A stretch of DNA of 39,434 nucleotides from Saprospiraceae bacterium (lineage in GTDB: Bacteria > Bacteroidota > Bacteroidia > Chitinophagales > Saprospiraceae), in NCBI GenBank assembly GCA_021739645.1, contig JAIPBL010000058.1, positions 1 through 39,434 on the forward strand. Direction: 5' to 3'. The position numbers and the translations under genes were made by a program. Shown here one piece after another: positions 1,952 through 32,700 of the stretch; the stretch's first letter is position 1, and every line of letters begins with the position of its first letter. The notes under the pieces are model-generated. The model searched no databases and was not told where the DNA came from. It saw only the letters and a program-made list of their open reading frames with translations.

Positions 1952-2659
1952 TTAAAGGTTAATAATAAACGTCTTCCCGTTCACCGTAAGTTTTGCCTTT
2001 CCATTGCCCAAGAAGACGATTTGTCCTTCAAAATCAAAGCTCTCCCCAGAGTCGGTAGAGCCATGTACGTTCACCTTGGCACTGCCGCTGTTGATTTCTT
2101 CGTTGCTTTTATCAATGTTCAAATTGGTCACCACGAAGTCAATGTTCGACTCGGTCACGATGCCATCAGCTTTGAAAGTCTGCTCGCCGTTGCGGTCAAA
2201 AGTGCCGTTGGCGCTGAATTCGTTCACGTTTTGGCTCAAGCCCTCCAGCACCCAGTCTGCGTCGCCGTAGTCGTTGGAAGTCATGTGGTTGTTGTTGTAC
2301 GAGCCTTGGCTGTGGCAGATGAAATCGTAGTTGAGCGGAGTCACGTCGTTTTCACATTCCAGCGTCCAGGTGTACTGTGTGGTGTACTCGGAACTGCCGA
2401 TGGTCGTTTCGTTTTCCGTGATGATGGTGGTGTCTTTCGTCACGCCGCACTGGGAGCTTACGGTTTCCTGGGCGATTTCAACCGCCATTTCCAATTGTCC
2501 GGTAAAGCCGCCCATGCCTGCCTGCATGGCGCTTTCAATCATGTAAGATAGCTGGGTTTCCGAGATGGCCGCTTTGATTTGTTCCCGGTCTTTTCCGCAG
2601 GAACTGAGTGTGAAAAGGGCAAGGGCAAGTGCGCAAAGGCTAAAGATTTGATTTTTCAT
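1952..2659 (-). CDS. Hypothetical lipoprotein, putative LytTR-regulon member
   Basis: This is a 235-residue protein of unknown function. The N-terminus (MKNQIFSLCALALALF then LSSCGKD) is a textbook lipoprotein signal with a Cys at about residue 20, so it should be lipid-anchored. I chose the ATG at 2659 because the frame upstream of it (to 2713) would put 18 residues ahead of the signal peptide. The mature part is acidic, contains three further cysteines, and ends in a beta-rich stretch with a GNGKAKLTVNGKTFIINL-like tail; no domain is recognised. Its promoter region carries a 21-bp-period direct repeat and -33/-7 boxes matching those of the sterol desaturase gene at 5675, which suggests shared control (see findings). 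It lies downstream of the Kelch-like gene on the same strand, with 124 bp between them. Confidence 0.78.
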   Translation of the reverse strand: MKNQIFSLCALALALFTLSSCGKDREQIKAAISETQLSYMIESAMQAGMGGFTGQLEMAVEIAQETVSSQCGVTKDTTIITENETTIGSSEYTTQYTWTLECENDVTPLNYDFICHSQGSYNNNHMTSNDYGDADWVLEGLSQNVNEFSANGTFDRNGEQTFKADGIVTESNIDFVVTNLNIDKSNEEINSGSAKVNVHGSTDSGESFDFEGQIVFLGNGKAKLTVNGKTFIINL

Positions 2660-2710: not shown

Positions 2711-2776
2711 CAAAGATGCCCGGCAAAGGGCGCCAATTCAAAATCTCTTCAACCAACGGTCGGGAGGTTTCAACCA
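2711..2776 (-). promoter_or_regulatory. Promoter with 21-bp-period direct repeat (putative LytTR operator)
   Basis: Read on the minus strand, TGGTTGAA occurs at 2776-2769 and again at 2755-2748, starts exactly 21 bp apart; the repeat extends to 12 bp with one mismatch (CCGATGGTTGAA / CCGTTGGTTGAA). Five bases further on is TTTG (2742-2739), then 20 bases, then CATCTTTG (2718-2711), which fits the Bacteroidota -33/-7 promoter with one base off the TAnnTTTG consensus. LytTR-family regulators classically bind two 9-bp direct repeats 12 bp apart, i.e. a 21-bp period, just upstream of the core promoter. The gene driven is the lipoprotein starting at 2659. Confidence 0.6.
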
Positions 2777-2783
2777 TCGGCAA

Positions 2784-4376
2784 CTATTGTTTCACTAGCT
2801 TCAGTACGCCAGTGTCGTTGTTCCCGCCATATTTCAAGAAATAAACCCCGCTGGGCAGCCCTTGCAGCATTTGCTTTAGCTCCGCAAAACCAGTGGACGC
2901 TGTTTGGGAATAAGCCGCTAAGACTTGGCTATCCACTCGCAGCAACTCACAATGGTTAATTGGTGACAATGATTCGATGTGCAAGAAGTCATCGTTCGAA
3001 AAAGGATTGGGAAAGACCTGCAAGGAAGGCGCAGTCGCCTCCGCCGTGGAACTCACCGTCGGCTTGGGGGTGATGTAAACCTTGAACATCCGTTGGTTGG
3101 CGCTCGATGGCGTGATGTTGGGAATCTCCGCTTTGATACCCCCGAAGAGGTGGCCAACGAAGGTCGGGCCGCTCATTGCCCGGAGCTTCAGCACCTCGTT
3201 GGGGTAGTGCGGCGCATTTTCCGAAGGCACAAAAACCATGTTTGCTCCCAGCAGTTCGTCAAAGCTTTGTGGCATGACGAACTCCTGGCTCGTCCCGTCC
3301 GCCTGTCGCCGGAAGGTGGTGATGTCCTTGATGAACGGCACTTTGCTGTCGTACTGCAAGCCATTGTTCCAAAAATGAACGCTCAGGCCGCCAAAGAACA
3401 GCGTGTTCATGGAGCCATCCAGCGAGTCGAAAAGTGGCACGGCAGGGCAGGTGTATTGTGAAAACAACTGCTCATAGCTGGCGTCCATTTCGAAGATATT
3501 GTCTTCGGCAATGAAGATGGGATTGTAAAACGGCAGGTCTTCGTCTGGTCGGAAAACGCCACCGTAAAGGCACAGCGCTTCACTACCGTTCGGTCGGATA
3601 ACGGGTGACAGGGTGAAATCCCGTCGGTGCAAATTGGCCTCGTCGTGGTGTGCCGTGTAGTCAGTGATGGCGAGGCTGGCGGTGTTGTTCGTTATTTTGA
3701 AACGCCTGATTTCATTGGTATAAACTTGCGTGAACTGTGGCGGCCCGTTCTGGTTGTACAGCCCCGAAAACTCGTGGCCGCCGACGAGGTAAAACCAGTC
3801 ACCCATCTTTTCCATTTCCCCGCCACATGCTTTGAGTTGTGGCACTTCGGTTTGCCGAAAAGCTGCCGCCGGATTCTCGCCAGCCAGCAGTTTTGTCTTG
3901 AGCAATAGCAAATCCACCGCCGTCAAAACAGGGAAAGTCCTGAACTCGCCGCTGGCAATATCTTTCCCATAGCCTCCGGCAATATAGAGCCAGTCGCTGT
4001 CCTGTGCGTACTGCGGGTTGGTGGAGTGGAGGGCATCCCCGAAGGGCAGGTTCATGTCCTCCACCTCGAAGGACAGCACCGTACCGTTGTCGGGATGGAT
4101 GAGCAGCACTTCCACATTGGCTTTGTCTTCTGGAAAACCCGTGGCGATGAAAAAGCCGTGCAGCCCGTTGATACGGCCCCCAATGACCACCCACCACTCA
4201 TCCACTTTGCCGAAGGCAAAAGAATGAAGGCCGGGGATGCTGGCCTGTGTCACCTCCTCCAGGTCGAGGGTAAAGGGCAAATCGGCAGGGTCGCCGAGGG
4301 TTTGGGCTTTTGGGGAAATGGGCGACAGCAGCAGCGCCAAAGTGAGGAGGATTAAAACGTGTAGGGTTGTTCTCAT
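2784..4376 (-). CDS. Kelch-like beta-propeller protein with T9SS type A sorting domain
   Basis: This is a 530-residue secreted protein. The ATG at 4376 gives a good signal peptide (MRTTLHVLILLTLALLLSPIS, then PKAQ); the longer frame to 4421 adds an unlikely extension. The body contains repeated aromatic/hydrophobic strands followed by Gly-Gly: WWVVIGG, LYIAGG, FYLVGG, LCLYGG, LFFGG and HLFGG, the spacing seen in Kelch-type propellers. The C-terminal 75 or so residues start with VFPNPFSND and end LPSGVYFLKYGGN...LKLVKQ, a type A T9SS sorting domain. Nothing points to an enzymatic residue set, so a binding or adhesion role is the most one can infer. It lies 81 bp downstream of the sterol-desaturase gene, but a hairpin at 4408-4433 separates them. 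Confidence 0.8.
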   Translation of the reverse strand: MRTTLHVLILLTLALLLSPISPKAQTLGDPADLPFTLDLEEVTQASIPGLHSFAFGKVDEWWVVIGGRINGLHGFFIATGFPEDKANVEVLLIHPDNGTVLSFEVEDMNLPFGDALHSTNPQYAQDSDWLYIAGGYGKDIASGEFRTFPVLTAVDLLLLKTKLLAGENPAAAFRQTEVPQLKACGGEMEKMGDWFYLVGGHEFSGLYNQNGPPQFTQVYTNEIRRFKITNNTASLAITDYTAHHDEANLHRRDFTLSPVIRPNGSEALCLYGGVFRPDEDLPFYNPIFIAEDNIFEMDASYEQLFSQYTCPAVPLFDSLDGSMNTLFFGGLSVHFWNNGLQYDSKVPFIKDITTFRRQADGTSQEFVMPQSFDELLGANMVFVPSENAPHYPNEVLKLRAMSGPTFVGHLFGGIKAEIPNITPSSANQRMFKVYITPKPTVSSTAEATAPSLQVFPNPFSNDDFLHIESLSPINHCELLRVDSQVLAAYSQTASTGFAELKQMLQGLPSGVYFLKYGGNNDTGVLKLVKQ

Positions 4377-4457: not shown

Positions 4458-5675
4458 TTAAAAAAAGAAGTCCTGAATGCCCTTCCAGAACAGTTCGTCC
4501 CGCTTCACGGCGTATTTCTCAAACTGCGTGGCGTTCAATACAGCCTTCATTTCCTTGTCTTTGTCATTCTGGATTTTGCTCAATCGGCGGTACTTCGACC
4601 AGTCGCTGAGTTTTGGTGTTATGACCTCCTCCTCCACTCGCTTTGCGGAGCGCAGGTTGATGTCGTGGACTTTGGGCAATTGGTCTTGCCGCAGCGCCAG
4701 GCCCAAGCGCATCAGCGAGTCCACCTGCTGGGTGCGGTATTCCGGAGTGCCGTAATTGCCTTCTTTGATGTCGTCGAGCGACATTTGGCCGCTGGCCACC
4801 GAGCTGCAAAGCAAGAATGCAACCATGGCAGCGGCTTTGGTGATTTGCTGGCGCAATGGCACGGGTGACTTTGACTGTGGAGTTTTGCCAGTACGTTCCA
4901 CTACCTCCTCGAAATATTGGTCGTATTCGGGGTGGTTTGTGCCCATCACCCGGTCCCAGAAGTTGAAGTAGAGGCCGTAGTTGAATCGGGCTTGGTGGTG
5001 GTGCATATTGTGGTGCGTGGGCGTGTTCAGCCACTTGAACAGGCGGTGGCGGGTGAAGCCGCTCGGCGAAATCTCGTAGCCCGTGTGGCCCAGCACGTTG
5101 AACAAAATGCTCCACAACGTGAACAGGAAAAAGGCCGCTGCATGGACGGGCAGAACCAGCGTCAGCACCGGGATGATGGCGAATTCCAGCACCGATTCCA
5201 GCGGGTGAAACGAGAAAGAGGTATAGGGCGTGGGGTTGGTAGATTTATGGTGAACGAGGTGGAAACGACGGTACAATTTCGGGTGGTGCATCAGGCGGTG
5301 CATCCAGTAGAAGTAGGTGTCGTGCGCCACGATGAGGAAGGCGAGGCTAAAAACCCAATAGACCCAACCGTACTCTGCCACCTCAAAATAGAGCTGGCCA
5401 TAGCCCATTTTTCGAAGGAAAAACACACCCAAAGCCATGCCGCCGAAGAGCAGCGAAGTGAGCAGAGAGTAGCTGATTTCTTGCCGGATTTGCGCCGATT
5501 TTGGAAAACGCTGCTGGATTTTCCAAGCGAACCATTCCTTGCGCTTCCATTTGTAAACCAATAAAAAAGCCAGGGATGTGGGGATTGCGAAGCGCAGGAA
5601 TATCATGGTAGAAGTGAGCAACCAAGCGGCGCCAGGGCCGAATTGCAAGCCGATGTTTTCGATGATAGAATGCAT
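4458..5675 (-). CDS. Sterol desaturase / fatty acid hydroxylase family protein with extra C-terminal tail
   Basis: This is a 405-residue integral membrane di-iron enzyme. The fatty acid hydroxylase histidine clusters are all present: HDTYFYWMHRLMHH, HLVHHKS, a single conserved H in GHTGYE, and THHNMHHH, set among about five hydrophobic segments. Such enzymes hydroxylate or desaturate lipids at the membrane; the substrate cannot be read here. After the catalytic part there is an unusual addition: a new hydrophobic stretch AAAMVAFLLCSSVASGQ that looks like a signal peptide, followed by about 110 polar residues (QVDSLMRLGLALRQDQLPKV..., INLRSAKR, KAVLNATQFEKYAVKR) resembling small exported LTxxQ/Spy-like proteins of Bacteroidota. 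The ATG at 5675 was chosen because the upstream extension is Pro/Arg/Cys-rich and overlaps promoter boxes. It is adjacent to a LytTR regulator gene. Confidence 0.85.
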   Translation of the reverse strand: MHSIIENIGLQFGPGAAWLLTSTMIFLRFAIPTSLAFLLVYKWKRKEWFAWKIQQRFPKSAQIRQEISYSLLTSLLFGGMALGVFFLRKMGYGQLYFEVAEYGWVYWVFSLAFLIVAHDTYFYWMHRLMHHPKLYRRFHLVHHKSTNPTPYTSFSFHPLESVLEFAIIPVLTLVLPVHAAAFFLFTLWSILFNVLGHTGYEISPSGFTRHRLFKWLNTPTHHNMHHHQARFNYGLYFNFWDRVMGTNHPEYDQYFEEVVERTGKTPQSKSPVPLRQQITKAAAMVAFLLCSSVASGQMSLDDIKEGNYGTPEYRTQQVDSLMRLGLALRQDQLPKVHDINLRSAKRVEEEVITPKLSDWSKYRRLSKIQNDKDKEMKAVLNATQFEKYAVKRDELFWKGIQDFFF

Positions 5676-5710: not shown

Positions 5711-5775
5711 CAAAAATGCAGGCAGCCGGGCGGCGGGGCAAACTTCTTCAACGAGTGGGCGGGAGCTTTCAACGA
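5711..5775 (-). promoter_or_regulatory. Promoter with 21-bp-period direct repeat (putative LytTR operator)
   Basis: On the minus strand TCGTTGAA occurs at 5775-5768 and 5754-5747, exactly 21 bp apart. Four bases later TTTG (5742-5739) is followed by 20 bases and CATTTTTG (5718-5711). The layout is the same as at 2711-2776: same repeat period, a 4-5 bp gap to the -33 box, the same 20-bp spacer and CATnTTTG at -7. The driven gene is the sterol desaturase starting at 5675, and the next gene upstream is a LytTR regulator. CGTTGAA fits the general LytTR half-site pattern (C/A)GTTnA. Confidence 0.65.
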
Positions 5776-5814: not shown

Positions 5815-6564
5815 TCAATCTTCTGATTCCGCATCTGCTTTTGAGCTTTCGGGCGAGGTCAGGTTAAAAACTGCCTGCACCACTTCCTCCCTTTTACCTC
5901 GACTTATGGGGATTTTATGTGCCTGTATTTCGAGCATGTTGCCCAATATGGATTGCACTTTTTCTTTTGAAATAATATAGCTTTTATGCACCCGAAGAAA
6001 TCGGTCGGCGGGCAGTTGTTCTTCCAAGTTTTTCAGGCTTTCCAGCGTGACATATTTGCCGTTCCGGCAAATAAAACGCACATACTCTTTTAAGCCCTCC
6101 ACGAACAATATATCATCATAAAATAGCTTGACGATTTTGCCGTCCACCTTGGCCGTGAGGAAGTCGGCTGACGAGGTCGGAGCGGTAGGGATGGGCTGGC
6201 GCAATTTGAGCTGTTCCTTTGCTTTGTTCACCGCTTGCAGGAAGCGCTCGAAAGGGAAGGGCTTCACCAGATAATCCACCACATTCAGGTCGAAAGCTTG
6301 GATGGCATACTCGGAATAGGCCGTGGTGAAGATGGTGACGGGCTGCTGTTGCAGGGTTTTGAGCATGTTCACCCCGCTCAGCGTCGGCATCTGGATGTCG
6401 AGGAAAAGCAGGTCGATTGGCTGTGAATTCAGGACTTCGAGCGCGGCCATGGCCGATTTTACCTTGGCCACCACTTCCAGCCCTGGCACATCCTGGATGA
6501 ACGTTTCGAGCAGGTTCAGGGCCAGGTATTCGTCGTCAACAAGCAGGGTTTTTATCGTGGACAT
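5815..6564 (-). CDS. LytTR-family response regulator
   Basis: This is a 249-residue cytoplasmic two-component regulator. Residues 1-120 are a receiver domain: LLVDDE at the start (acidic pocket), phosphoacceptor Asp56 in LLFLDIQMP, the Thr/Ala switch in IFTTAYSEYA and the Lys in YLVKPFPFERF. Residues from about 140 to 245 are a LytTR DNA-binding domain (DDILFVEGLKEYVRF..., FLRVHKSYIIS, IPISRGKREEV). I chose the ATG at 6564 because the receiver fold starts there; the longer frame to 6609 overlaps the kinase stop. The cognate LytS-type kinase ends 41 bp upstream, so the pair is almost certainly one operon. The likely direct targets are the promoters at 5711-5775 and 2711-2776 (inference). Confidence 0.93.
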   Translation of the reverse strand: MSTIKTLLVDDEYLALNLLETFIQDVPGLEVVAKVKSAMAALEVLNSQPIDLLFLDIQMPTLSGVNMLKTLQQQPVTIFTTAYSEYAIQAFDLNVVDYLVKPFPFERFLQAVNKAKEQLKLRQPIPTAPTSSADFLTAKVDGKIVKLFYDDILFVEGLKEYVRFICRNGKYVTLESLKNLEEQLPADRFLRVHKSYIISKEKVQSILGNMLEIQAHKIPISRGKREEVVQAVFNLTSPESSKADAESED

Positions 6565-6605: not shown

Positions 6606-7637
6606 TCAAGCGTTTACTTTTAATACAAAAAAGACCTTGAAAAGGCCAAGCTCATCGTGGGTTTCCAACTGGAAATCGTCGGGATGCTGCAAGGCCAATC
6701 GTCGGTGGATATTCTCCAACCCGACGCCGCCCGTCCGGTCTTTTTGTTGGTCGGCATCGTTTTTAGTATTGGCGGTATTGAAGGTCAATTCACCTTCCCG
6801 TACCGTCAACTGCATTTTTACAAAAGCCTTCGGGTTGGTGTCAAAATCGCAGTGTTTAAAGCAGTTCTCGACGATGGGAATCAAAATCATCGGCTCGATT
6901 TTCACCCCGTTCAACTCCCCTTCTGCGGTGAATTCGATGTCCTGCGGCTCCTCGTTCCGCATCTGGAATAGCTCGATAAAATGCCGGATATGCTCCACTT
7001 CTTTTTCCAGCGGCACGAGGTCGCCCTTCTTTTCGTACACCACGTAGCGCAGGAGTTGGGAGAGTTTGAGCACCATATCCGCCGTTTTCGGGGAGCGCAC
7101 CACGGCGAGGGAATAGATATTGTTGAGGGTATTGAACAGGAAATGCGGGTTGATTTGCGCCCGGAGGAACTGCAACTCCGCCTCCGTCTGCCGGTTGATG
7201 ATGGCCAGCGCCTTGCGCTCGGCAGCGTATCGGTTGATGAGCACTTGGTAAATCGTGCTCAACATGACGATACCGTACCCCGTGGCGACCGCCCCAAACA
7301 GCAAGCCCCGCTCTAAGCTTAGTGGTTCTACGCCGCTTTGCAAGAGGGATTGCTTATTGATATAAAAACGGCAAGGCACGGTCACCCAAATCATCACGTT
7401 TGCCAAGGCGATATATGGCACATACTTTTTCTTTTCGAGGAACAGGTTGACCAGCCAGGCATTGGCATAAAAAAGCAGGGCCAGCACCACGTGGTTGATC
7501 AGTGGCCGCCAGATGTTCAGCCCGGGGTCGAGGAACCAATTGGACAGCACGAGGTTCAGTACCCCCAGTACCAGCCAAAAGGCCACGTGCAGCCAGATGG
7601 TCATCTTCCGGTCGGTCATTTTTATCATTTGCCGCAT
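6606..7637 (-). CDS. LytS/YehU-type sensor histidine kinase
   Basis: This is a 343-residue membrane kinase counted from the ATG at 7637 (MRQMIKMTDRKM...). Alternative ATGs at 7628 and 7619 are also plausible; the frame to 7709 adds a stretch that does not look like protein. Four hydrophobic segments (about residues 13-33, 47-67, 74-92, 110-132) precede the His_kinase domain with phosphoacceptor His165 in QINPHFLFNTLNNI, followed by a HATPase domain with the N-box ENCFKHC and the G-box GGVGLENIHRRL. There is no obvious periplasmic sensor domain, so it probably senses through its membrane segments. It is the partner of the LytTR regulator encoded immediately downstream. Confidence 0.9.
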   Translation of the reverse strand: MRQMIKMTDRKMTIWLHVAFWLVLGVLNLVLSNWFLDPGLNIWRPLINHVVLALLFYANAWLVNLFLEKKKYVPYIALANVMIWVTVPCRFYINKQSLLQSGVEPLSLERGLLFGAVATGYGIVMLSTIYQVLINRYAAERKALAIINRQTEAELQFLRAQINPHFLFNTLNNIYSLAVVRSPKTADMVLKLSQLLRYVVYEKKGDLVPLEKEVEHIRHFIELFQMRNEEPQDIEFTAEGELNGVKIEPMILIPIVENCFKHCDFDTNPKAFVKMQLTVREGELTFNTANTKNDADQQKDRTGGVGLENIHRRLALQHPDDFQLETHDELGLFKVFFVLKVNA

Positions 7638-7799
7638 ATCGTTTTTGTCATTGGGTAAAACTATTCCAAATGCCGGAGCTGGCCAATCTTTTTCAATCAA
7701 CTGCAGCAATCAGCAAACCAATCGTTCACCAACTTCAATGATTGGGGAACCCCAATCGTCTAATGCGCCCAACTTGTTGTTTTTTTATCCACCTGTATT

Positions 7800-8546
7800 T
7801 CAAATAGCTTTCATTGCTTTCACCACCTCCTCCTTTCGTCGTCTCGAAACTTCGATGCGGGCGTCGTTGCGAAGCACCAAATACCCCTCGTGGTCAAGGA
7901 AGGAAATGAACGAGCGGTTCACGAGGTGCGACTTGTGGGTTCGCAAAAAACCATGCGGAGCGAGCAACTCTTCATACTCACCCAAACCCTTTGATGCTAG
8001 AAATTTACGCCTTTCGGTCAGGTGAAACTGCGTGTAACTACCCAGCGCCTCCAGTCGGATAATTTCATTGGGAGGAAAAAAATGGATGCCGTCTTTCGAG
8101 GACACGGCGAGCCGGAACTGTTCGGGGCTTTTCGCTTGGAGGTTGCTCAAGCCATTGCGGAATTGCTCAGGCTGGAAGGCCAACTCATCGAGGCTGGTCT
8201 GGTAGCGCTGAACAGCAGCCATAAGTTCTTCCGGTTCGATGGGTTTTAGCAGGTAATCAAAGGCGCTAAAACGGATGGCCTGGAGGGCAAATTCACTGAA
8301 AGCGGTGGTGAAAATGACCTTGAAACTTCGCTGGCGAATCTGTTGTAGCACCTGAAACCCATCGAGGTGTGGCATCTGGATGTCGAGGAAAACGAGGTCG
8401 GGTTTCAGCTCGTGAATCATGGGAGCAGCCTGACGGGCGTCGTTGCACGACCAGATGCGTTCGACGTCCGGCACGTAACGCTCCACCATCAATTGCAGGA
8501 CGCTGGAAGCCCTCAGTTCGTCGTCTATGATTAGTGCTTTGAGCAT
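7800..8546 (-). CDS. LytTR-family response regulator paired with the propeller kinase
   Basis: This is a 248-residue regulator starting MLKALIIDDELRASS; the in-frame ATGs a few codons earlier (8564, 8561) are less likely. The receiver has Asp55 in LVFLDIQMPHLDGF, the switch IFTTAFSEFALQ and Lys in YLLKPIEPEEL. The C-terminal LytTR domain follows a short linker (EIIRLEALGSYTQFHL, GFLRTHKSHLVNRSFI, IEVSRRRKEEVV). It belongs with the large sensor kinase at 8772-11774, which is immediately upstream on the same strand, but the two are separated by 225 bp that consist almost entirely of a hairpin-rich repeat element (8568-8762). The downstream kinase/regulator pair at 5815-7637 is a paralogous system. 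Confidence 0.92.
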   Translation of the reverse strand: MLKALIIDDELRASSVLQLMVERYVPDVERIWSCNDARQAAPMIHELKPDLVFLDIQMPHLDGFQVLQQIRQRSFKVIFTTAFSEFALQAIRFSAFDYLLKPIEPEELMAAVQRYQTSLDELAFQPEQFRNGLSNLQAKSPEQFRLAVSSKDGIHFFPPNEIIRLEALGSYTQFHLTERRKFLASKGLGEYEELLAPHGFLRTHKSHLVNRSFISFLDHEGYLVLRNDARIEVSRRRKEEVVKAMKAI

Positions 8547-8567
8547 GGATGTTTTATTCATCAAGGA

Positions 8568-8762
8568 TAATTAGCTCAAGTTGCGGATGATGTTCCGTAG
8601 GAACAAAATCTTTGTAGCACTTTGCCAAAGCACGGTTTTCCGTTCCATCGGAACGGCATCTTTGGGGCAAAATACCGTTCCGATGGAACGGAAGGATTCA
8701 AAATGCATGATTCTACAAAGATGTCGTCCCGATGGGACGTTATCCGCAATTTGAGTTAATTA
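8568..8762. repeat. Hairpin-rich miniature inverted-repeat element, copy 1
   Basis: This 195-bp element has imperfect terminal inverted repeats: taattagctcaagttgcgg on the left, and the reverse complement of the right end reads taattaactcaaattgcgg. Inside, in order: palindrome GTTCCGTAGGAAC (8592-8604), ATCTTTGTAGCAC (8608-8620), TGCCAAAG, palindrome CCGTTCCATCGGAACGG (8640-8656), palindrome CCGTTCCGATGGAACGG (8675-8691), TTCTACAAAGAT (8711-8722) and CGTCCCGATGGGACG (8725-8739). The same order of modules recurs at 18061-18241. It sits between the propeller kinase gene and its regulator gene. Confidence 0.8.
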
Positions 8763-8771
8763 AGCTCCGAT

Positions 8772-11700
8772 TCACGCCAGTTTTATCATCACTTTCGTCC
8801 CAATTGGAGTGCCATCCTCTGAAACCAAGTCAATGATTTCCAACGAATTATGCTGCTGGTGACGGCTGTTGAGCGCCTCCAACCTTTCCAAGCCAGCGCT
8901 CATGCCCTTGCTTTGGTGCTTGCCGTTTCCGTTAGTTTTTTGGGCGGCAGTCCTTCCAACCCCATTGTCCTCGACGATGCAAACTAGGTGCTCCGCAATG
9001 TCGGTTTCAAAACGGACGAACAGGCGGCGCATGCCTTCCTTGTGCAAAAGTCCGTGCCAAATAGCGTTTTCGACAAAAGGCTGGATGAGCAGTGTGGGCA
9101 GTTTGTACTCGTTGAGGTCGAGGCTCGGTTCGTGCTCGATGCTGTACTCGAAACTATCGGCAAATCGCAGGGACTCCAATTCGAGGTACAGGCGTAGCAT
9201 CCCGATTTCTTCCCGGAGGCTCACCATTTCGTGGTCGCTGTGCGCCAGTACCAACCGCAGCAGCTTCGAGAACTTGGACAGATAAGTGGCTGCGCCATCG
9301 CTGTTGCCCGTCATTATCAATTCTTGGATGGAGTTCAGGGAGTTGAACAAAAAATGCGGGTTCATTTGCAGCCGCAGGCTTTGCAGCCGGGCCTGGAGGG
9401 CGGAAGCTTTCAACCGCTCCAGTTCCAAAGCCTGTAATTGGCGTTTTTTCAACATGGCCTCCCGTCTGCGGATGAAAAACCAGAGCAGGCAAATTGCGGC
9501 GGCAGCCGCAAACCCAAAGAAAAGCGGCGTCTGCCAGAAAGCCGGTTGGATACGAAAATTGAATGGCGGCGCTGCATACCACTGCGACCCAGAGAGGCTG
9601 GCTGCCAATTCCAACTGGTGCTTTCCGAGCGGTAAGTTGGCGAGCCGGATGGTGCCACTGCCGTTGGTGCTGACCCACGGCCCATTGTCCTCCAGGCGGT
9701 AGCGGTACTGCAGTTTTCCGGCGTTGTTGAAGTACGGTGCCACCACCTCGAAAGTCAGCGTGTTTTGCTCATGTGAAAAAACGAGGTCTGGCTGAGGGTT
9801 CCAGATGACGCTATCGCCGTCACCGATTGTCAGCGTTTGCAGGGTTGGGGCGAGGGGCTGGCTTTCCAGCTCGATTTTTTCAGGGTAAAAATAGTTGATG
9901 CCATTCTGCCCGCCGAGAAACAGCAGCCCGTTGCTGGCCCGAAGCATGGCATGGGGGTGGTAAAAAAGGCTCTGGATATTGTCGGCAAAATCGAAGCGGC
10001 GAAACACCCCAAGCGAGGAGTCGGCGAGAAAAAGCCCGTCGCTGGTGCCGAACCAAAACCGCTGCCGGTGGTCTTGGTAAATAATTGTCGCATGCGAGTT
10101 TCCAATCGGAGAATCCACTTTTGAAATCACGCCCGCTGCTGATGCGGGCGATAACCGGAACAGCCCATTGGAGGTGCCGAGCAACATTTCGTCGTTGCCA
10201 TTTTGGGCGATAGCCCACACCAATTTCTGGTCGGTAGGGATGCTGAACTGGAGGTGCAGCTGCTCGTCAAGTACATAAACGCCTTTTGTGCTGCCAAGCC
10301 AAATCCTGCCCGTTGAGTCCTGACAAGCGCCGACAATATTGGTGTTGTTGCCCGGGAATTGCAGAAAATCAAGCAGATATGACTTTGCTCGGAGCAAGTA
10401 AGTATGTTTTTTGGCACACACAACAAAGTCGCCATTGCGCAAGAGGAGGATGCCGGAGATGAAGTCATTTTCGATTTCTGCCGCCACCGAATCGGAGGTG
10501 ATTTTAGGGCGGCGGTAGGAATCCGCCGCTGGGTTGTACAACCAAACTCCCTTCCCAGTGGGGCCAAGCACGACGTAAGGCGCAGCGAACGCCATGCCCC
10601 GCACGCTGGGGTGGCTGAGGCGGTCGGTAACGTCTTCTCCCGGCGCATGAACCGCTACTTGCCCTGTTTTTAGGTCCAATTTATTGAACCCATGAAAACC
10701 GCCGAACCAGATATTCCCGTCACTGTCTTCGGTGAAACCTATCACGTTGGAATTCCATTTCAGCGGTTCTTCGTCGTGGTAGTTTCGGAACAGCCCAATG
10801 GTGTTTTCCAACGAGCGGAACGCCACGACGTTGGTCTGGTTGTGGGTCCAAAAAGTCCCATTATCGTCTGAAAAGAGCCGAAACAGCCGCTCGTCCAGGT
10901 CAATTGGTTTGCCTTCGGCAAAAATGCGTTGCCGGGTAAAGCGGTCGCTGCGCAAGTCGTAAGTGCATATTCCAAACTTCGTGGTGACGAGAAAAAGGCT
11001 GTCACCAACTGGAACGGCGTCATGGATGCCAGGAAAATGCTGCCAGTTGCTTAGACCATATTCCATGGCATCCACTGGGGTCTTCGTACCTAAGTTGAAA
11101 TCGAGCCAGAACGAATAATCGTTGAAATAGGACCAGACGGCGAGGTCGGGGGTTAGGGCGCAAATGCTGACATAAGGCGTCCAAACTTCCACCGTCCTAA
11201 CCTTTCCGGTGGCGAGGTCGGCGGCGTGGATGCAGTTTTTGCCGGGGTAAAAAATGGTGCTTTCGCAAACGTCGAAGCGCAGGCTGCCAGTGGAAAACAA
11301 GGGCGGCGGCAGGGAAATGGGGAGGCTTTGGAAAGCGCCTTTTTTTTCATCCCAACCGAAAAGCCCTTTGGAGGTGAGGGCGTAAACTGGCCGTTCTTCC
11401 AACTGAAAAATGATACGGACAATGCCGATGCTGGCAGTGTCATGTGGCACGGGCTCGAAGCCCCAGCGGTCGGTGCAAGTGCGGAAGATGCTGCTGCCCA
11501 CCAGTGCCCAAACCCGGTTATCCCGGTCGCAGAGCGCCTGCATGACGTTGTTTTCAAATTGGTATTTGTAAACATTCCGGCCATCGAAACGCTGCAAAAC
11601 ATCGCCTGCCCCGACCCATAAAAACTGCTGACGGTCTTTGAAAAAGAACTCGATGGAGCCGCCACTGATGCCTTGCGCTGCGCCAAATACCTGCGCATGG

Positions 11701-11774
11701 TATTGCGGAAGCTGGGCGGAAAGCATGAGCCTCCCAGACAGGAACAGCAAGAGAAATAGACATCTCAAGGGCAT
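8772..11774 (-). CDS. Hybrid propeller sensor histidine kinase (Reg_prop, Y_Y_Y, His_kinase)
   Basis: This is a 1000-residue sensor. A signal peptide (MPLRCLFLLLFLSGRLMLSAQ) is followed by a long periplasmic beta-propeller region with repeated two-component-regulator-propeller strands (QFLWVGAGDVLQRFDG, GNIWFGGFHGFNKLD, GRIWLGSTKGVYVLD, QRFWFGTSDGLFLAD). A Y_Y_Y-type domain follows (LTFEVVAPYFNNAGKLQYRYRLE, LPLGKHQLELAAS), then one transmembrane segment (PLFFGFAAAAAICLLWFFI), a coiled linker, and a LytS-type His_kinase domain with the phosphoacceptor His in LQMNPHFLFNSLNSI and the N-box ENAIWHGL. In Bacteroidetes such sensors detect extracellular polymers or their fragments, but the ligand here is unknown. 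It is not a one-protein hybrid system because the receiver is encoded separately downstream. It is divergent from the glycoside-hydrolase pair at 12086-16132, which may be what it helps control (inference). Confidence 0.93.
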   Translation of the reverse strand: MPLRCLFLLLFLSGRLMLSAQLPQYHAQVFGAAQGISGGSIEFFFKDRQQFLWVGAGDVLQRFDGRNVYKYQFENNVMQALCDRDNRVWALVGSSIFRTCTDRWGFEPVPHDTASIGIVRIIFQLEERPVYALTSKGLFGWDEKKGAFQSLPISLPPPLFSTGSLRFDVCESTIFYPGKNCIHAADLATGKVRTVEVWTPYVSICALTPDLAVWSYFNDYSFWLDFNLGTKTPVDAMEYGLSNWQHFPGIHDAVPVGDSLFLVTTKFGICTYDLRSDRFTRQRIFAEGKPIDLDERLFRLFSDDNGTFWTHNQTNVVAFRSLENTIGLFRNYHDEEPLKWNSNVIGFTEDSDGNIWFGGFHGFNKLDLKTGQVAVHAPGEDVTDRLSHPSVRGMAFAAPYVVLGPTGKGVWLYNPAADSYRRPKITSDSVAAEIENDFISGILLLRNGDFVVCAKKHTYLLRAKSYLLDFLQFPGNNTNIVGACQDSTGRIWLGSTKGVYVLDEQLHLQFSIPTDQKLVWAIAQNGNDEMLLGTSNGLFRLSPASAAGVISKVDSPIGNSHATIIYQDHRQRFWFGTSDGLFLADSSLGVFRRFDFADNIQSLFYHPHAMLRASNGLLFLGGQNGINYFYPEKIELESQPLAPTLQTLTIGDGDSVIWNPQPDLVFSHEQNTLTFEVVAPYFNNAGKLQYRYRLEDNGPWVSTNGSGTIRLANLPLGKHQLELAASLSGSQWYAAPPFNFRIQPAFWQTPLFFGFAAAAAICLLWFFIRRREAMLKKRQLQALELERLKASALQARLQSLRLQMNPHFLFNSLNSIQELIMTGNSDGAATYLSKFSKLLRLVLAHSDHEMVSLREEIGMLRLYLELESLRFADSFEYSIEHEPSLDLNEYKLPTLLIQPFVENAIWHGLLHKEGMRRLFVRFETDIAEHLVCIVEDNGVGRTAAQKTNGNGKHQSKGMSAGLERLEALNSRHQQHNSLEIIDLVSEDGTPIGTKVMIKLA

Positions 11775-21460: not shown

Positions 21461-24400
21461 TCACCCCACCCGCATCCTATCCTCCCCAAAAACCTTTTCG
21501 AGCATTTCCAATAAAAAATCGGCGTCCATTTTCGAAAAAATAATTGGCGGTTTAATTTTTAAAACATTGTGAAACGGCCCGTCGGTGCTCATCAGAATGC
21601 CGAGTTCCCGCATCCGGTTGGCGAGGTAAGCAGTTTCGGCAGCGGCAGGCGTGAGCGTTCCCCGGTCTTTTACCAACTCAATTCCAAGGAACAGGCCCGG
21701 CCCCCGCACATCGCCAATGATAGGGAATTGGTTGGCCAGTTCGTGCAGACCTTGGCGGAGGTAGCCCCCGATTTCTCGGGCATTTTCCTGCAAACCCTCG
21801 TCTTTTATGACCCGCAGCACCTCCAGCCCGATGGCACAGGACACCGGATTCCCCCCAAAAGTGTTGAAATATTCCATGCCGTTTGCGAAGGCATCGGCAA
21901 TGGCTCGGGTTGTCACCACCACGCCCAGCGGATGGCCGTTGCCGATGGGCTTGCCCACCGTCACGATGTCCGGCACAACGCCGTGCTCCTCGAAAGCCCA
22001 AAAATGCTCACCGTGCCGCCCGCAGCCTGTCTGTACTTCGTCGGCAATGAGGAGGCCGCCAAAGCTGCGAATCTGCTTTGCTGCCTCCGCCAGATAGCCC
22101 GTCGGCAGTGGGACTTGTCCGCCGCAACTGATGACCGACTCGCAGAGGAACGCCGCCACGCCACGCCCGGCATCTTTGATTTTTTGAGCGGCTTCGCCTA
22201 AATGGGCGGCGTATTTCAGACCATTTTCCTTGGTATTTCCCCGGTAAATCCCCCGATAGACGTCGGGCATCGGCATGACGTGCACATGTGGGGGAGCGCC
22301 CTTGCCGCCCGGCCCTTCGAACTTGTAGGAACTCACGTCCACGCAGCCCTGTGTGTTGCCATGGTAGCCGACTTCCACCACCAGCATGTCTTTTTGTTGG
22401 GTAAAATTCTTCGCCAAACGCATGGCCAGTTCGTTGGCCTCGCTGCCGCTGTTGACGATGAACGCCACGTCCAGTTCCGGCGGGAAGGTGGCCAAAAGCT
22501 CCTCGCTGAACCGGACGATATTCTCGTGCAGGTAGCGGGTGTTGGTGTTCAGGACGGCCATTTGGCGCTGGCCGGCCCGCACCACACGGGGGTGTTCATG
22601 GCCCACGTGCGCCACGTTGTTCACGGTGTCCAGGTAGCGCCGCCCAGTTTCATCGAAAAGGTACTGCCGCCAGCCCCGCCGCATGTTGAGCGGATTTTGG
22701 TACGACACACTGAGGTTTTTGCCCAGATGTCGTTGGCGGAATTGCAGGATTTCACCCGCAGCCAACTTGACTGGCGGCGGCGGAGACGGCTGGCCAAACA
22801 GCAGCAACCACGGGTCGGGGCAGATGCTTTTCCAAACCGTTTTCTTTTCGGGAAAGACCACTCCGGTGAAGTCGCCCTGCCAGCCCATCATGTCGAGCAT
22901 GACCTGCAGGTGCAGGTGCGGCGGCCAGTTTCCGTTCTCTGGCATTGGCCCGATTTGGCAGAACGCCTCGCCTGCCCGAACCTTTTGACCTACTTCCAGG
23001 CTCTCCAGTGATTTGCGGCTCAAGTGGCCGTACAGCGTAAAAAAGGTCAGGGTAGGGGAGACCCGGTGTTCCAAAATGATGGTTGGGCCGTAATTCAGTT
23101 CGCTGGCATTGTCCTGAAAACTGTGCACCGTGCCAGCGACGGGTGCCTGGACGGGTGTTCCCGGTGGCGCAAAAATATCCAGCCCGATGTGCACGGTACG
23201 CCATTCGGGGCCGTCGTTGCCGTTCACGGCGTAGGCATCGGTGGTGTAAAACGGGCGGGCTTCATCGTAGCGGCCAATGATGGGACGGTTTGCGAATTGG
23301 GGTTTGCCGGACTCGGCCAGCACCTGCATGATTCGGCGCTGGAGCTTTTCGGGGTCTTCGAGGTTGGCGTAGTTGCCGAGGTCTTGGCTGCCAACGCTGA
23401 GGTCGAGCCAGATGGCTTCGTTGAGGTCGGCACCAATGACAGCGGCAACGTTTTTTGGAAAATTGTCCCCATTTACCCAATTCATGAACGCCGCATTTTG
23501 GGGGCAAGGCTCCCAGCCGCAGGCGTGTCGGACGGTGGCATGGGCAAGGGCAGGCGGGATTTCCCGCAGTTTTTTCAACAAATCCCAGGCTGGCCGGTCG
23601 CTGATTTGCAGGTATTCGTTGCCGGGGTTTTCCGCCAGGTTCATTGCCGAGCAGGTGACGCTGATGAGCAGCCTCGCAATGGTGAGCGGGAACAATGCTT
23701 CGGCCTCCGGTTCCGTGAGTGGAAATTGTCGGTGGTAGCCTTTTGCCAAATGGGAAATGGCGGCCAAGGGGTCGGGTTTGTGCATGGCGGCGTAGGCACA
23801 GGCGATGGCCAGTTCGTTGACGGTATGGGTGAAAACAGCGTCGCCAAAATCAATCACGCCCGGCACCACCAGGTTTTCTGGGTCGTGGCTGACGAGGATG
23901 TTGTAGTCATTGGCGTCGTTGTAACAGACGCTTTGGCGCAGTTGGGGCAGCAGTGGCACGGCATTTTTTTCAAAAAGCTGGTAAAAATATTGCGCCAGCG
24001 CCTGTTTTTCATCGCCTTCTATCTGGGGTGAAAACTCACCCGTCCAGCCCGCTTGCGAGGCATCCCATTTGAGGAAGCGGTGCGCTGCCGGGTGGTCGAA
24101 ACCTTCGAGCGCCCGGCTCAGTTTCCCGCAGAGTTCCCCCACTTTTTCCAGCAAATCGGGCGAGTGCGGGTTCACCTCGGCGAAGCAGCGGCCCTCCACC
24201 CAAGTGAGCAGGCGCATCAGCCGCAAGCTGCCATCGGGGGCAGTGATGCTGGTGATTGTTTCACCAGAAACGGACGGCACAACTTGCGGGATTTTCAGCC
24301 CTAACCCCGCGCTGTTCAGGCGGGCCATGAGCGCATTCTGAAATTCGAGGTACTCCCTGTTCGTGTCCGGGTGGGCGATTTTCAGGTTGTACTTTTCACC

Positions 24401-24517
24401 AGTGGGCGTTTTTGCCAAGAAATTGAGGTCAATCTCACCGGGCAGTTGTTCGGCGGAAATTGACAGGTTGAAATGCTCGGCGGCAAGGGTGGCGATTTGG
24501 TGCGATGTAAAGGTCAT
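21461..24517 (-). CDS. Three-domain fusion: APH-type kinase, M23 peptidase, class III aminotransferase
   Basis: This 1018-residue protein starts [19 protein letters not shown] chose the ATG at 24517 over 24544. Residues 1-330 form an aminoglycoside-phosphotransferase/hydroxylysine-kinase-like domain with YNDANDYN (199-206) and VIDFGDAVF. Residues about 410-560 form an M23 domain with zinc ligands His443 and Asp447 (HIGLD) and HLHLQ. Residues about 590-1018 form a class III PLP enzyme with [17 protein letters not shown], catalytic Lys856 in TVGKPIGNG and [11 protein letters not shown]. The aminotransferase part belongs with AGXT2L-type ammoniophospholyases, and fusion with a hydroxylysine-kinase-like domain is known in bacteria; a phosphorylate-then-lyse route for a hydroxy-amine substrate is therefore plausible. 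The Brenner-motif His expected at 199 is Tyr (codon TAC, one base from CAC), which may disable the kinase. The M23 domain role is obscure. Confidence 0.9.
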
Positions 24518-24763
24518 AAGCTGGAATAGATGTGGTTTGGGCAAAGATACGGTGTCGCTCTGTGGTTCTCTGTGTGCTAAGTGCCTCCGTGTTTATTTTA
24601 TGAAAAGTGAATCAGCGACCACCAAAAGGCATTGCGCTATGCGGGTTCAATTTACCGGACCGCTGGTGCTGGAAAATTATTTTCAGATTCTGATTAGAAT
24701 GCACCATCTTTCGCCCTTGTGATCAATGGTTGTGTGTTCTTAACTAACGAAAAATCGTACTCA

Positions 24764-29787: not shown

Positions 29788-32700
29788 ATGAGAAATGAGA
29801 AAAACTACACTACACAAACCCCTGAACTTGATTTCAGGAAGCTGCCGAGCGCAGTCTTGGAATGGATTGCCCGGTACATGCCCCAAATGGAGGACATGCT
29901 AAAAAGCTTTGTCCTATTGCTTTTGGCATCTAGCCTCCCGTTTGGAGCTACCTTGTTTTCGCAGAATGTCAAGCCGAAAATTATCCATGAATGCAGCACC
30001 TTCACCCCACCGGTGGAGGCGTTGGCGCACGAGCAAAAAATTGCAAGCCAGTTGGCCACTTTCACCGAAGAATACATGAAGGAGGGTGGTGCCAAAATGG
30101 CCACCGTTGTGCCTATCCATATACATATCGTAAGGCGAGACGACGGTACAGGCGGTATCAATGTGGCTACCGTCCAGTCAGAAATAGCGAATTACGTTAA
30201 CACTCGCTATTCCTCCATTGGCGTATCCTTTCAAGAGTGTTCCCCTGCTACCTACATTAACAGCACCGCCTATTACGACCTGTCAGGAGACCCCGAAGGC
30301 GACGCCATGTCGGCGGCATACAACGTGCCCAATGTGCTGAACCTTTACTTCGTAAACGACCCGGACGGCGCCTGTGGTTGGGCAAGATTCACTTTCTTGC
30401 TGCCTTCCGATTACGTAGTAATAGCCAATGGTTGCGCCGATAACACAAGTACCCTTGCTCATGAAATCGGCCACTATTTTGACCTTTTCCATACGCATGA
30501 GACGGCTTTTGGCGCTGAGTGCGTAGATGGCTCCAACTGCGCTGTGGCTGGCGACCTGTTTTGCGACACACCTGCCGACCCGGTTTTGAGTGGGAAAGTG
30601 ACGGCTTACCCCGGTTGTGGATATGTTGGGGCAGATTTAGACCCCTGCAACAATGACCCATACACCCCGAGCACGCACAACATCATGTCTTACTCCCAGA
30701 AGCAATGCCGTGACATTTTCACCGCACAACAGAATGCTAAAATTCTGTTTACCATTGCCAACGGGCGTAGCTACTTGGATTATGGATGCGCTATGCAAGT
30801 ACCAGGGGATGACTGTGCCGATGCCATCCCCATCTCTTGTGGCGACATGGCCTCCGGCTCCACAGTAGATGCCACCCTGGATGGGCCTGCTCAAGATTGT
30901 TTTGGGCTAAGCGTGGCACCTGACGTCTGGTACACCATGTTGGGTACTGGCGGCAATATCACCGCTAGCCTATGCGGCGCTGGTACCAATTACGATTCGA
31001 AAATTGATATTTACACCGGTACCTGTGGCGCCCTTAGCAGTGTGGTATGTAATGATGACTTTTGTGGATTGCAATCTCAAGTTACCTGGGCCTCAACGCT
31101 GGGTGTTCCCTACCTTATCAGAGTGCATGGTTTTATTGGTGGTACAGGCAATTACACCCTTTCGATAACTTGCCCAGTGACGCTGACCTGTCCAGGGGAT
31201 ATGACGGTAGCCTCCTGCCAGACGCAGGCGGACGTTGACGGCGAGTTTGCTACATGGCTGGCTTCGGCCACGGCCAGTGGCGGCTGCAACGGGGTTTTGA
31301 TGAACAACAACCAAGGCCCACCGTCCATTTGCGGCGGTTCGACAACAGTGACGTTTACCTACACCAGCAGCTGTTCACCGCTCCAAACAAACTGCACGGC
31401 GACCTTCACGGTCACCGCCCCACCAACAGTACAACTTAACTGCCCAGGGGATATGACGGTAGCCGCCTGCCAGACGCATGCGGACGTTGACGGCGAGTTT
31501 GCTGCATGGCTGGCTTCGGCTTATACAAGCGGCGGCTGCAATGGCGTTTTGATGAACAACAACCAAGGGCCACCCTCCATCTGCGGCGGTTCGACAACGG
31601 TGACGTTCACCTACACCAGCAGCTGTTTTCCGTTCCAAACAAACTGCCCAGCAACCTTCACAGTAACCGCACCTCAGCCAGTGGTGCTGGTGTGCCCGGT
31701 GAACACGACGGCAAGTCCTTGTTTGACACAAGCCCAGGTAAACACTGCCTATGCAACATGGTTGGCATCGGCAACTGCCTCAGGTGGCTGCAACGGTGTT
31801 TTATCGAACAACAATGCGCTGCCTGCACCGACAATTTGCAATCAGCAGGCAGCAACAAGGACGGTGACCTGGACCTATACAAGCTCATGTTTCCCGTTCA
31901 CAACTACTTGTACGGCGACGTTCACCTTGCAAGCGTACCCGGACTTTGCCGTACCGGTAAACGGTGCTGCGACGGTGCCTTGTCCTGCCAACGCCACGCA
32001 ACCCACGCCGCCAGTGGTGTTGGATGCCTGCGGCAAAACAGCTACACGCACGGGGCCGGTGATAACCAACAATCCGAACCCGCTGACCTGTGAGGGCACA
32101 AGAACCTACACTTGGACTTATTCCGACTGTGCTGGCCATTCTCACCAGTGGAGCTTTGTTTACACGGTGGTTAGGTTGGACTTTGGCGTTCCGCCAAACA
32201 GTGGCAGCACCGTGGCTTGCCCCGGCCAAACGGATGTGCAGCCCACTCCACCGGTCGTATTCAGCAATTGTGGGGAACAGTTGACACCCGTTTTGACAAG
32301 TGTGACCCCAAAGCCGGGTTGCGAGGGCAACCGGAACTATACTTGGACCTACACGGACTGTGCTGGCCATTCGCACCAGTGGACGTACATCTACACCGTC
32401 AAATACCTTGACTTCACGGTTCCGGCAAATGAGATTGAGGCAGTGGAGTGCCCATTGAACGTGGTGGTTCCGACACCGCCAGTGGTTCACGACAACTGTG
32501 GCAACCTGCTCAACGCAATAGGCCCGGTCATTACCAGTACGAACAACGCTGGGGGTTGCGAGGCATCGAGGACTTACGCTTGGACCTACACTGACTGTAC
32601 GGGCAGAACCCATACCTGGAGCAAAACCTTCAACTTCCTGTATTCGCTCGACTTCGACATTTACCCGAGCAAAGTGGCCGAGGTGACCTGCGTTGACCAT

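Follow-up and report, generated by a model that had tools for sequence, protein, structure and literature searches.

According to PMC11347149, most LytTR regulators bind upstream of the -35 element and activate transcription. Their operators consist of 9-11 nt repeats separated by 11-13 nt spacers (PMC4847170). Operators of the YpdB, BtsR and AgrA type comprise two repeats with centres about 21 bp apart, placed upstream of the promoter, and the element described here is built likewise. It differs from them in having a 12-bp repeat that ends in a near-invariant TTGAA, in its link to a putative Bacteroidota -7 box at a distance of 28-29 bp, and in its target genes. The half-site also resembles the general LytTR motif reported by Nikolskaya and Galperin (2002). 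The regulator encoded at this locus finds its best NCBIfam match in BtsR (NF008677), at 130.1 bits, well under the cut-off of 246. In the BtsS/BtsR (YehU/YehT) system, the YehT binding-site oligonucleotide presented in PMC4847170 has ACCGCTTA and ACCACTCA, which resemble the half-site found here in its 5′ portion; in contrast to that system, the kinase here has no detected LytS sensor domain, and genes for a lipoprotein, a hydroxylase and a kelch protein are the predicted targets.

A second point of comparison is DesK/DesR of Bacillus subtilis, which PMC3996569 and PMC6879721 describe as two-component control of a membrane-bound lipid-modifying enzyme. Here, likewise, a two-component pair would preside over a membrane lipid enzyme; the analogy is one of function only, the operator being different. 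DesR belongs to a different family of regulators from the LytTR protein considered here. Literature searches for LytTR with Saprospiraceae, with Bacteroidetes and fatty acid hydroxylase, or with a 21-bp direct repeat returned nothing, nor did one for sterol desaturase and two-component systems in Bacteroidetes. Broader listings, judged by title and by the opening of the abstract, contained no LytTR operator defined in Bacteroidota. This kind of operator is already known from LytTR regulators, and this particular regulon is undescribed in the openly accessible journal literature searched.

Putative operators and gene module in the window

The window (the whole 39,434-nucleotide stretch of Saprospiraceae DNA that was analysed) carries on its minus strand, in this order, genes for a kinase and a regulator, an operator, genes for a hydroxylase and a 530-aa T9SS protein, a second operator and a lipoprotein gene (Table 1). 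The initial annotation had reported, in front of the hydroxylase gene, a repeat of exact 21-bp period lying 4 bp before a TTTG-N20-CATTTTTG promoter. The sequence agrees: TCGTTGAA-N13-TCGTTGAA is read on the minus strand at 5775-5747, followed by GAAG, TTTG (5742-5739), 20 bp, CATTTTTG (5718-5711) and the ATG at 5675. A second copy with a like layout (TGGTTGAA-N13-TGGTTGAA, GAGAT, TTTG, 20 bp, CATCTTTG; 2776-2711, minus strand) stands ahead of the lipoprotein gene; this copy was absent from the initial annotation. The two (5747-5775 and 2748-2776, both minus) are the only exact matches to TSGTTGAA-N13-TSGTTGAA in the window, where 100 dinucleotide shuffles gave none, and also the sole exact matches in the whole genome of 6,157,607 bases, where the reversed pattern occurs once.

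Table 1. Coordinates of the module and of further genes preceded by the operator
Feature	Position	Strand	Basis
Sensor histidine kinase	6606..7637	minus	PF06580; hydropathy
Response regulator, Response_reg + LytTR; presumed operator-binding protein	5815..6564	minus	PF00072, PF04397; 15-orthologue alignment
Candidate degenerate triple half-site before kinase gene	7745-7734, 7720-7713, 7699-7692	minus	matrix score
TAGTTTTA box of candidate kinase promoter (element 7656..7745)	7663-7656	minus	promoter tail common to same-genus loci
Distal half-site, hydroxylase operator, CCATTCGTTGAA	5768..5779	minus	sequence; conserved in 25 sites
Proximal half-site, hydroxylase operator, CCACTCGTTGAA, 21 bp on	5747..5758	minus	sequence; conserved in 25 sites
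Core promoter of hydroxylase operon, TTTG-N20-CATTTTTG	5711..5742	minus	sequence; TTTG fixed 32/33 bp past operator in relatives
Membrane hydroxylase, FA_hydroxylase superfamily, with C-terminal extension	4458..5675	minus	PF04116; alignments
Kelch-like protein, 530 aa, with type IX secretion tail; encoded second in the hydroxylase operon	2784..4376	minus	T9SS tail; orthologues
Distal half-site, lipoprotein operator, CCGATGGTTGAA	2769..2780	minus	sequence; 25-site alignment
Proximal half-site, lipoprotein operator, CCGTTGGTTGAA	2748..2759	minus	sequence; 25-site alignment
Core promoter of lipoprotein gene, TTTG-N20-CATCTTTG	2711..2742	minus	sequence; family-wide pattern search
Lipoprotein, co-conserved with kinase and hydroxylase	1952..2659	minus	lipobox; loci
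Asn/Arg-rich repeat protein with operator	L109 7611-8084		
Asn/Arg-rich repeat protein with operator	L118 3824-4321		
Asn/Arg-rich repeat protein with operator	L226 2466-2939		

Relaxing the pattern makes it unspecific. At up to two mismatches, with TSRTTGAA as the first half-site, the genome contains 105 matches against 45 for the reversed control, and this form was rejected as a genome-wide regulon finder. An extended pattern at up to three mismatches gave seven matches (two exact, five at three mismatches) against three in the control; we therefore claim no more targets in this genome. At C15:42041-42090 of the same genome, three half-site-like words follow one another in 21-bp steps, with two mismatches per pair.

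Alignment of 25 training sites showed that the 8-bp half-site of the initial annotation, TSGTTGAA, is too short. Conservation reaches 12 bp (CCRYTSRTTGAA, twice at 21 bp), and positions that the search had left free are conserved as well (C at -3 in 23/25, at 18 in 25/25 and at 19 in 22/25); the 8-bp word was thus rejected as the full half-site. When scored with a matrix from which same-genus training sites had been removed, both window sites rank top, at 37.4 and 33.8 bits. The third-best match in the window (19.7 bits at 595, plus strand) lies within a coding frame; the maximum for the reversed window is 10.9 bits. The candidate site ahead of the kinase gene scores 12.4-12.5 bits, barely above that maximum; the tail of its promoter matches same-genus loci, whose own sites score 33.2 bits (L034) and 12.2 bits (L033).

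Pfam agrees with the genes that the initial annotation had assigned, finding Response_reg and LytTR domains in the regulator and His_kinase in the kinase; a PF06580 kinase together with a Response_reg-LytTR regulator identifies the pair as a LytTR two-component system. The kinase has about four hydrophobic segments by hydropathy. Pfam finds just His_kinase in it, and no extracytoplasmic or LytS-type sensor domain was recognised. Its ATP-binding motif (residues about 257-271) has an unusual, two-cysteine form, NCFKHCDFDTNP, which the consensus of 17 orthologues shares. Another kinase-LytTR pair lies directly upstream in the window, at 7800-11774 (regulator 7800-8564).

The hydroxylase matches PF04116 at 106 bits (gathering cut-off 31), and its histidine clusters are kept: His 118, 126, 130, 139, 142, 143, 197, 221, 222, 225 and 226 are invariant in 16 sequences. 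Its best NCBIfam match, ornithine lipid hydroxylase OlsE, scores 23.3 bits, far under the cut-off of 475, and a PDB search returned one match, taken as chance, on the C-terminal extension (E 0.44). This extension (residues about 300-395) had by eye a Spy/CpxP-like look, a reading that was abandoned when Pfam gave it no support. In L036, L110 and L111 it corresponds to a small protein encoded separately next to the hydroxylase, and in L049 to a stand-alone gene with its own operator. In G010 a site precedes a separate gene for it. Read from these sequences, the extension is a gene fusion within the putative regulon. One orthologue of the kelch-like protein gives a weak Kelch match, and in three genomes (G142, G251 and G010) the operator stands directly ahead of the kelch-like gene. 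For the lipoprotein, Pfam returned no match at E values up to 1; its lipobox cysteine 21 is invariant in 17 sequences. Elsewhere in the window, a single 1027-aa frame (21461-24544) joins APH phosphotransferase, M23 peptidase and class-III aminotransferase domains, and a 1450-aa secreted protein (29788-34140) combines an M43 peptidase, four HYR-like cysteine domains and a type IX tail.

The site in relatives

Homologues of the hydroxylase were searched in 60 relatives and 17 stretches were taken, with genes called by six-frame homology rather than from annotation. Six of them (L033, L034, L035, L036, L038 and L049) carry at least one zero-mismatch TSRTTGAA-N13-TSGTTGAA site each before the hydroxylase or lipoprotein gene; in L037 the operator at this place has two mismatches. 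In L039, L040 and L042-L047, where the hydroxylase is more distant and the lipoprotein is absent, no match was found at up to two mismatches. A single two-mismatch match in L041 lies far from the hydroxylase gene, and L048, a hydroxylase fragment at a contig end, has no operator match.

An evaluation outside the training set used 36 stretches (L157-L192) found by the lipoprotein profile and belonging to the same family as the training sites. Sites of at least 10 bits precede 22 of the 36 lipoprotein genes and 15 of the 17 kinase genes, with none of either in reversed regions and a background maximum of 9.7 bits over 635,388 positions (three further lipoprotein genes, with too little upstream DNA, were dropped). 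Every first lipoprotein gene with a kinase in the same stretch has a site (17/17); the proportion is 5/16 where the stretch has no kinase orthologue and 0/3 for second lipoprotein copies. The hydroxylase genes have a site of their own in just one case out of 15, which fits their position in these genomes, behind the lipoprotein gene. When the spacing was left free, 9 of the 11 half-site pairs detected in 56 upstream regions were exactly 21 bp apart, and the control gave no pairs. Conservation upstream of orthologues, on which the initial annotation had staked its reading, is thus found at multiple loci, these non-training stretches included.

A scan with the hydroxylase alignment gave 80 loci, which with six out-of-family stretches made 86 to be scored, about 12 of them loci already in the earlier sets. 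A site of at least 12 bits is present in 18 of the 21 stretches that have a kinase or regulator of at least 300 bits (the other three have none) versus 9 of the 65 that do not. The cultivated Lewinella cohaerens DSM 23179 (L270) possesses the entire module, Flavilitoribacter nigricans (L271) the hydroxylase and the site, and Xanthocytophaga flavus (L274) the kinase, regulator and hydroxylase, with a 25.5-bit site ahead of the kinase gene. The hydroxylase orthologues of L256 and L257 (69% identity) have sites scoring 11.9, in which one half-site is preserved at the right distance from the promoter and the distal one is degenerate; these genomes encode the kinase elsewhere.

The strict pattern TSRTTGAA-N13-TSGTTGAA-N32/33-TTTG was sought in 298 Saprospiraceae genomes, with the reversed pattern as control. 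There were 29 matches in 21 genomes and none in the control; among 395 genomes sampled across the phylum, the strict site occurs in the genome under study only. A chance repeat is rejected by the shuffles, by this family search and by the phylum search. Random genome-wide occurrence, named in the initial annotation as a refuting result, is not seen for the motif with its promoter; alone, at up to two mismatches, the motif is unspecific. Behind the 29 matches lie 12 lipoprotein, 6 hydroxylase, 5 kinase and 1 kelch-like genes (24/29); of the remaining five, two precede an Asn/Arg-rich repeat protein and three (G136, G181 and G242) other secreted or lipoprotein genes. The Asn/Arg-rich secreted repeat protein has the operator directly upstream in all three gene-bearing genomes of the 10 searched. 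Targets seen once each include a redoxin-like protein in G142. A 380-aa secreted protein (L121 6470-7612) has a strict-pattern site (15.9 bits by matrix) and is encoded next to a kinase-LytTR pair that has diverged, which may point to a paralogous regulon.

Kinase orthologues (E 1e-85 or better) exist in 48 of the 298 family genomes. They are found in 20 of the 21 strict-site genomes compared with 28 of the other 277 (Fisher p 4.9e-17, relatedness uncorrected). Such p-values overstate independence, since most of the loci behind the kinase and lipoprotein profiles bear the operator and the genomes share ancestry. The strict site occurs in 1 of the 250 genomes without a kinase orthologue, and its strict form is missing in 28 of the 48 genomes that have one. 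G136 has the strict site and lacks the kinase orthologue; G719 has sites at both lipoprotein and hydroxylase genes, yet its best kinase scores just 258.6 bits. The lipoprotein is encoded in 49 family genomes, 14 of them among the 21 site-bearing ones and 36 also with the kinase, and in 16 of the 395 phylum genomes. The six stretches from outside the family showed neither kinase nor site.

The Bacteroidota sigma-A -7 consensus is given as TAnnTTTG in PMC9723704. The -7 boxes of both window operators (CATTTTTG and CATCTTTG) have the TTTG part and lack the TA part. At 40 sites outside the training set, the operator is placed ahead of the core promoter by its spacing to TTTG: at 32/33 bp beyond it, TTTG is present in 26 sites and TTT[GAC] in 35, whereas other offset pairs have a mean of 0.69 TTTG. 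Lipoprotein promoters have a TT-rich -33-like box right after the operator in 39 of 42 sites and a -7 box usually without TA. Kinase promoters have a -33-like box after the operator in 9 of 31 sites, and in relatives they usually have T and A or T at the TA positions of the -7 box. These differences suggest that one regulator serves two promoter types. Comparison across the loci thus shows a conserved site whose distance to a promoter box is constant and which is associated with this kinase-regulator pair.

Probable regulator and proposed mode of action

Very probably, the site is the operator of the LytTR regulator at 5815-6564, which together with the kinase at 6606-7637 would turn on transcription of the lipoprotein gene and of the hydroxylase/kelch operon. 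The initial annotation had proposed that this regulator activates the adjacent enzyme. Comparison supports its LytTR-operator reading and widens the set of targets: as predicted from the sites, the regulon takes in the lipoprotein, the hydroxylase and the kelch-like T9SS protein, to which most relatives add the operon of the kinase and regulator themselves. The kinase would phosphorylate the regulator, and the phosphorylated form would bind the two CCRYTSRTTGAA half-sites as a tandem dimer, two helical turns apart. Once bound, it would recruit polymerase to a putative weak Bacteroidota promoter with a poor -7 box and so activate both transcription units; the operon encoding the kinase and the regulator would be a further target in most relatives. 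The geometry of the operator and the activator habit of LytTR regulators point to activation.

The same regulator could also act through the same site as a repressor, its phosphorylated or unphosphorylated form blocking polymerase at the -33 box. The proximal half-site does end 4-5 bp before TTTG, and a LytTR repressor overlapping the -35 element, CoxC, is known (PMC11347149). We consider this unlikely: the site lies upstream of the -33 box without covering it, the lipoprotein and hydroxylase promoters mostly lack the -7 TA, as activator-dependent promoters would, and most LytTR regulators described in the same text are activators. Improbable to a greater degree is that the operator serves another factor, either the second LytTR regulator (7800-8564) or an alternative sigma factor, with the adjacent regulator a bystander. 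The presence of the second pair directly upstream would fit such a view, as would the abundance of LytTR paralogues in these genomes, seen in numerous kinases of this type that score 210-265 bits. At the loci examined, however, the first pair belongs to the recurring gene set and the second does not, which disfavours the second regulator as the binder. Moreover, the site is present in the first pair's own kinase promoters, the strict site is nearly confined to genomes with the kinase orthologue (the one exception in 250 noted above), and two direct repeats with a separate, fixed -7 box are unlike a sigma-factor promoter.

Scarcely credible, finally, is inheritance of the motif as mere promoter sequence, with no regulator involved. 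The genomes are indeed related and the sites near-identical within a genus. Against descent alone, the 12-bp half-sites and the 21-bp period persist while the spacers diverge, the site precedes unrelated genes elsewhere in the genome (those of the kelch protein and the Asn/Arg-rich protein), and even at two mismatches no match accompanies the hydroxylase homologues that lie outside the module (L039, L040, L042-L047).

If the adjacent LytTR regulator is the activator, the signal might be the state of the membrane or envelope and the output an altered membrane lipid. An intramembrane signal is plausible since the kinase has its hydrophobic segments and no recognised sensor domain. We tentatively raise the possibility, somewhat short of an even chance, that the module is a membrane-remodelling switch of Saprospiraceae, a LytTR-built functional counterpart of DesK/DesR in which the kinase, having little if any extracytoplasmic portion, would read the state of the membrane and induce the hydroxylase, its partner lipoprotein and the secreted kelch-like protein.

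Saprospiraceae genomes carry many kinase-LytTR pairs, and for one of them the present operator offers a half-site of 12 bp at constant promoter spacing, with few predicted targets. It would provide a regulatory handle on an unassigned membrane hydroxylase and on a lipoprotein yet to be characterised, with the prediction that these proteins work together as members of a small putative regulon recurring across environmental bacteria of one family.
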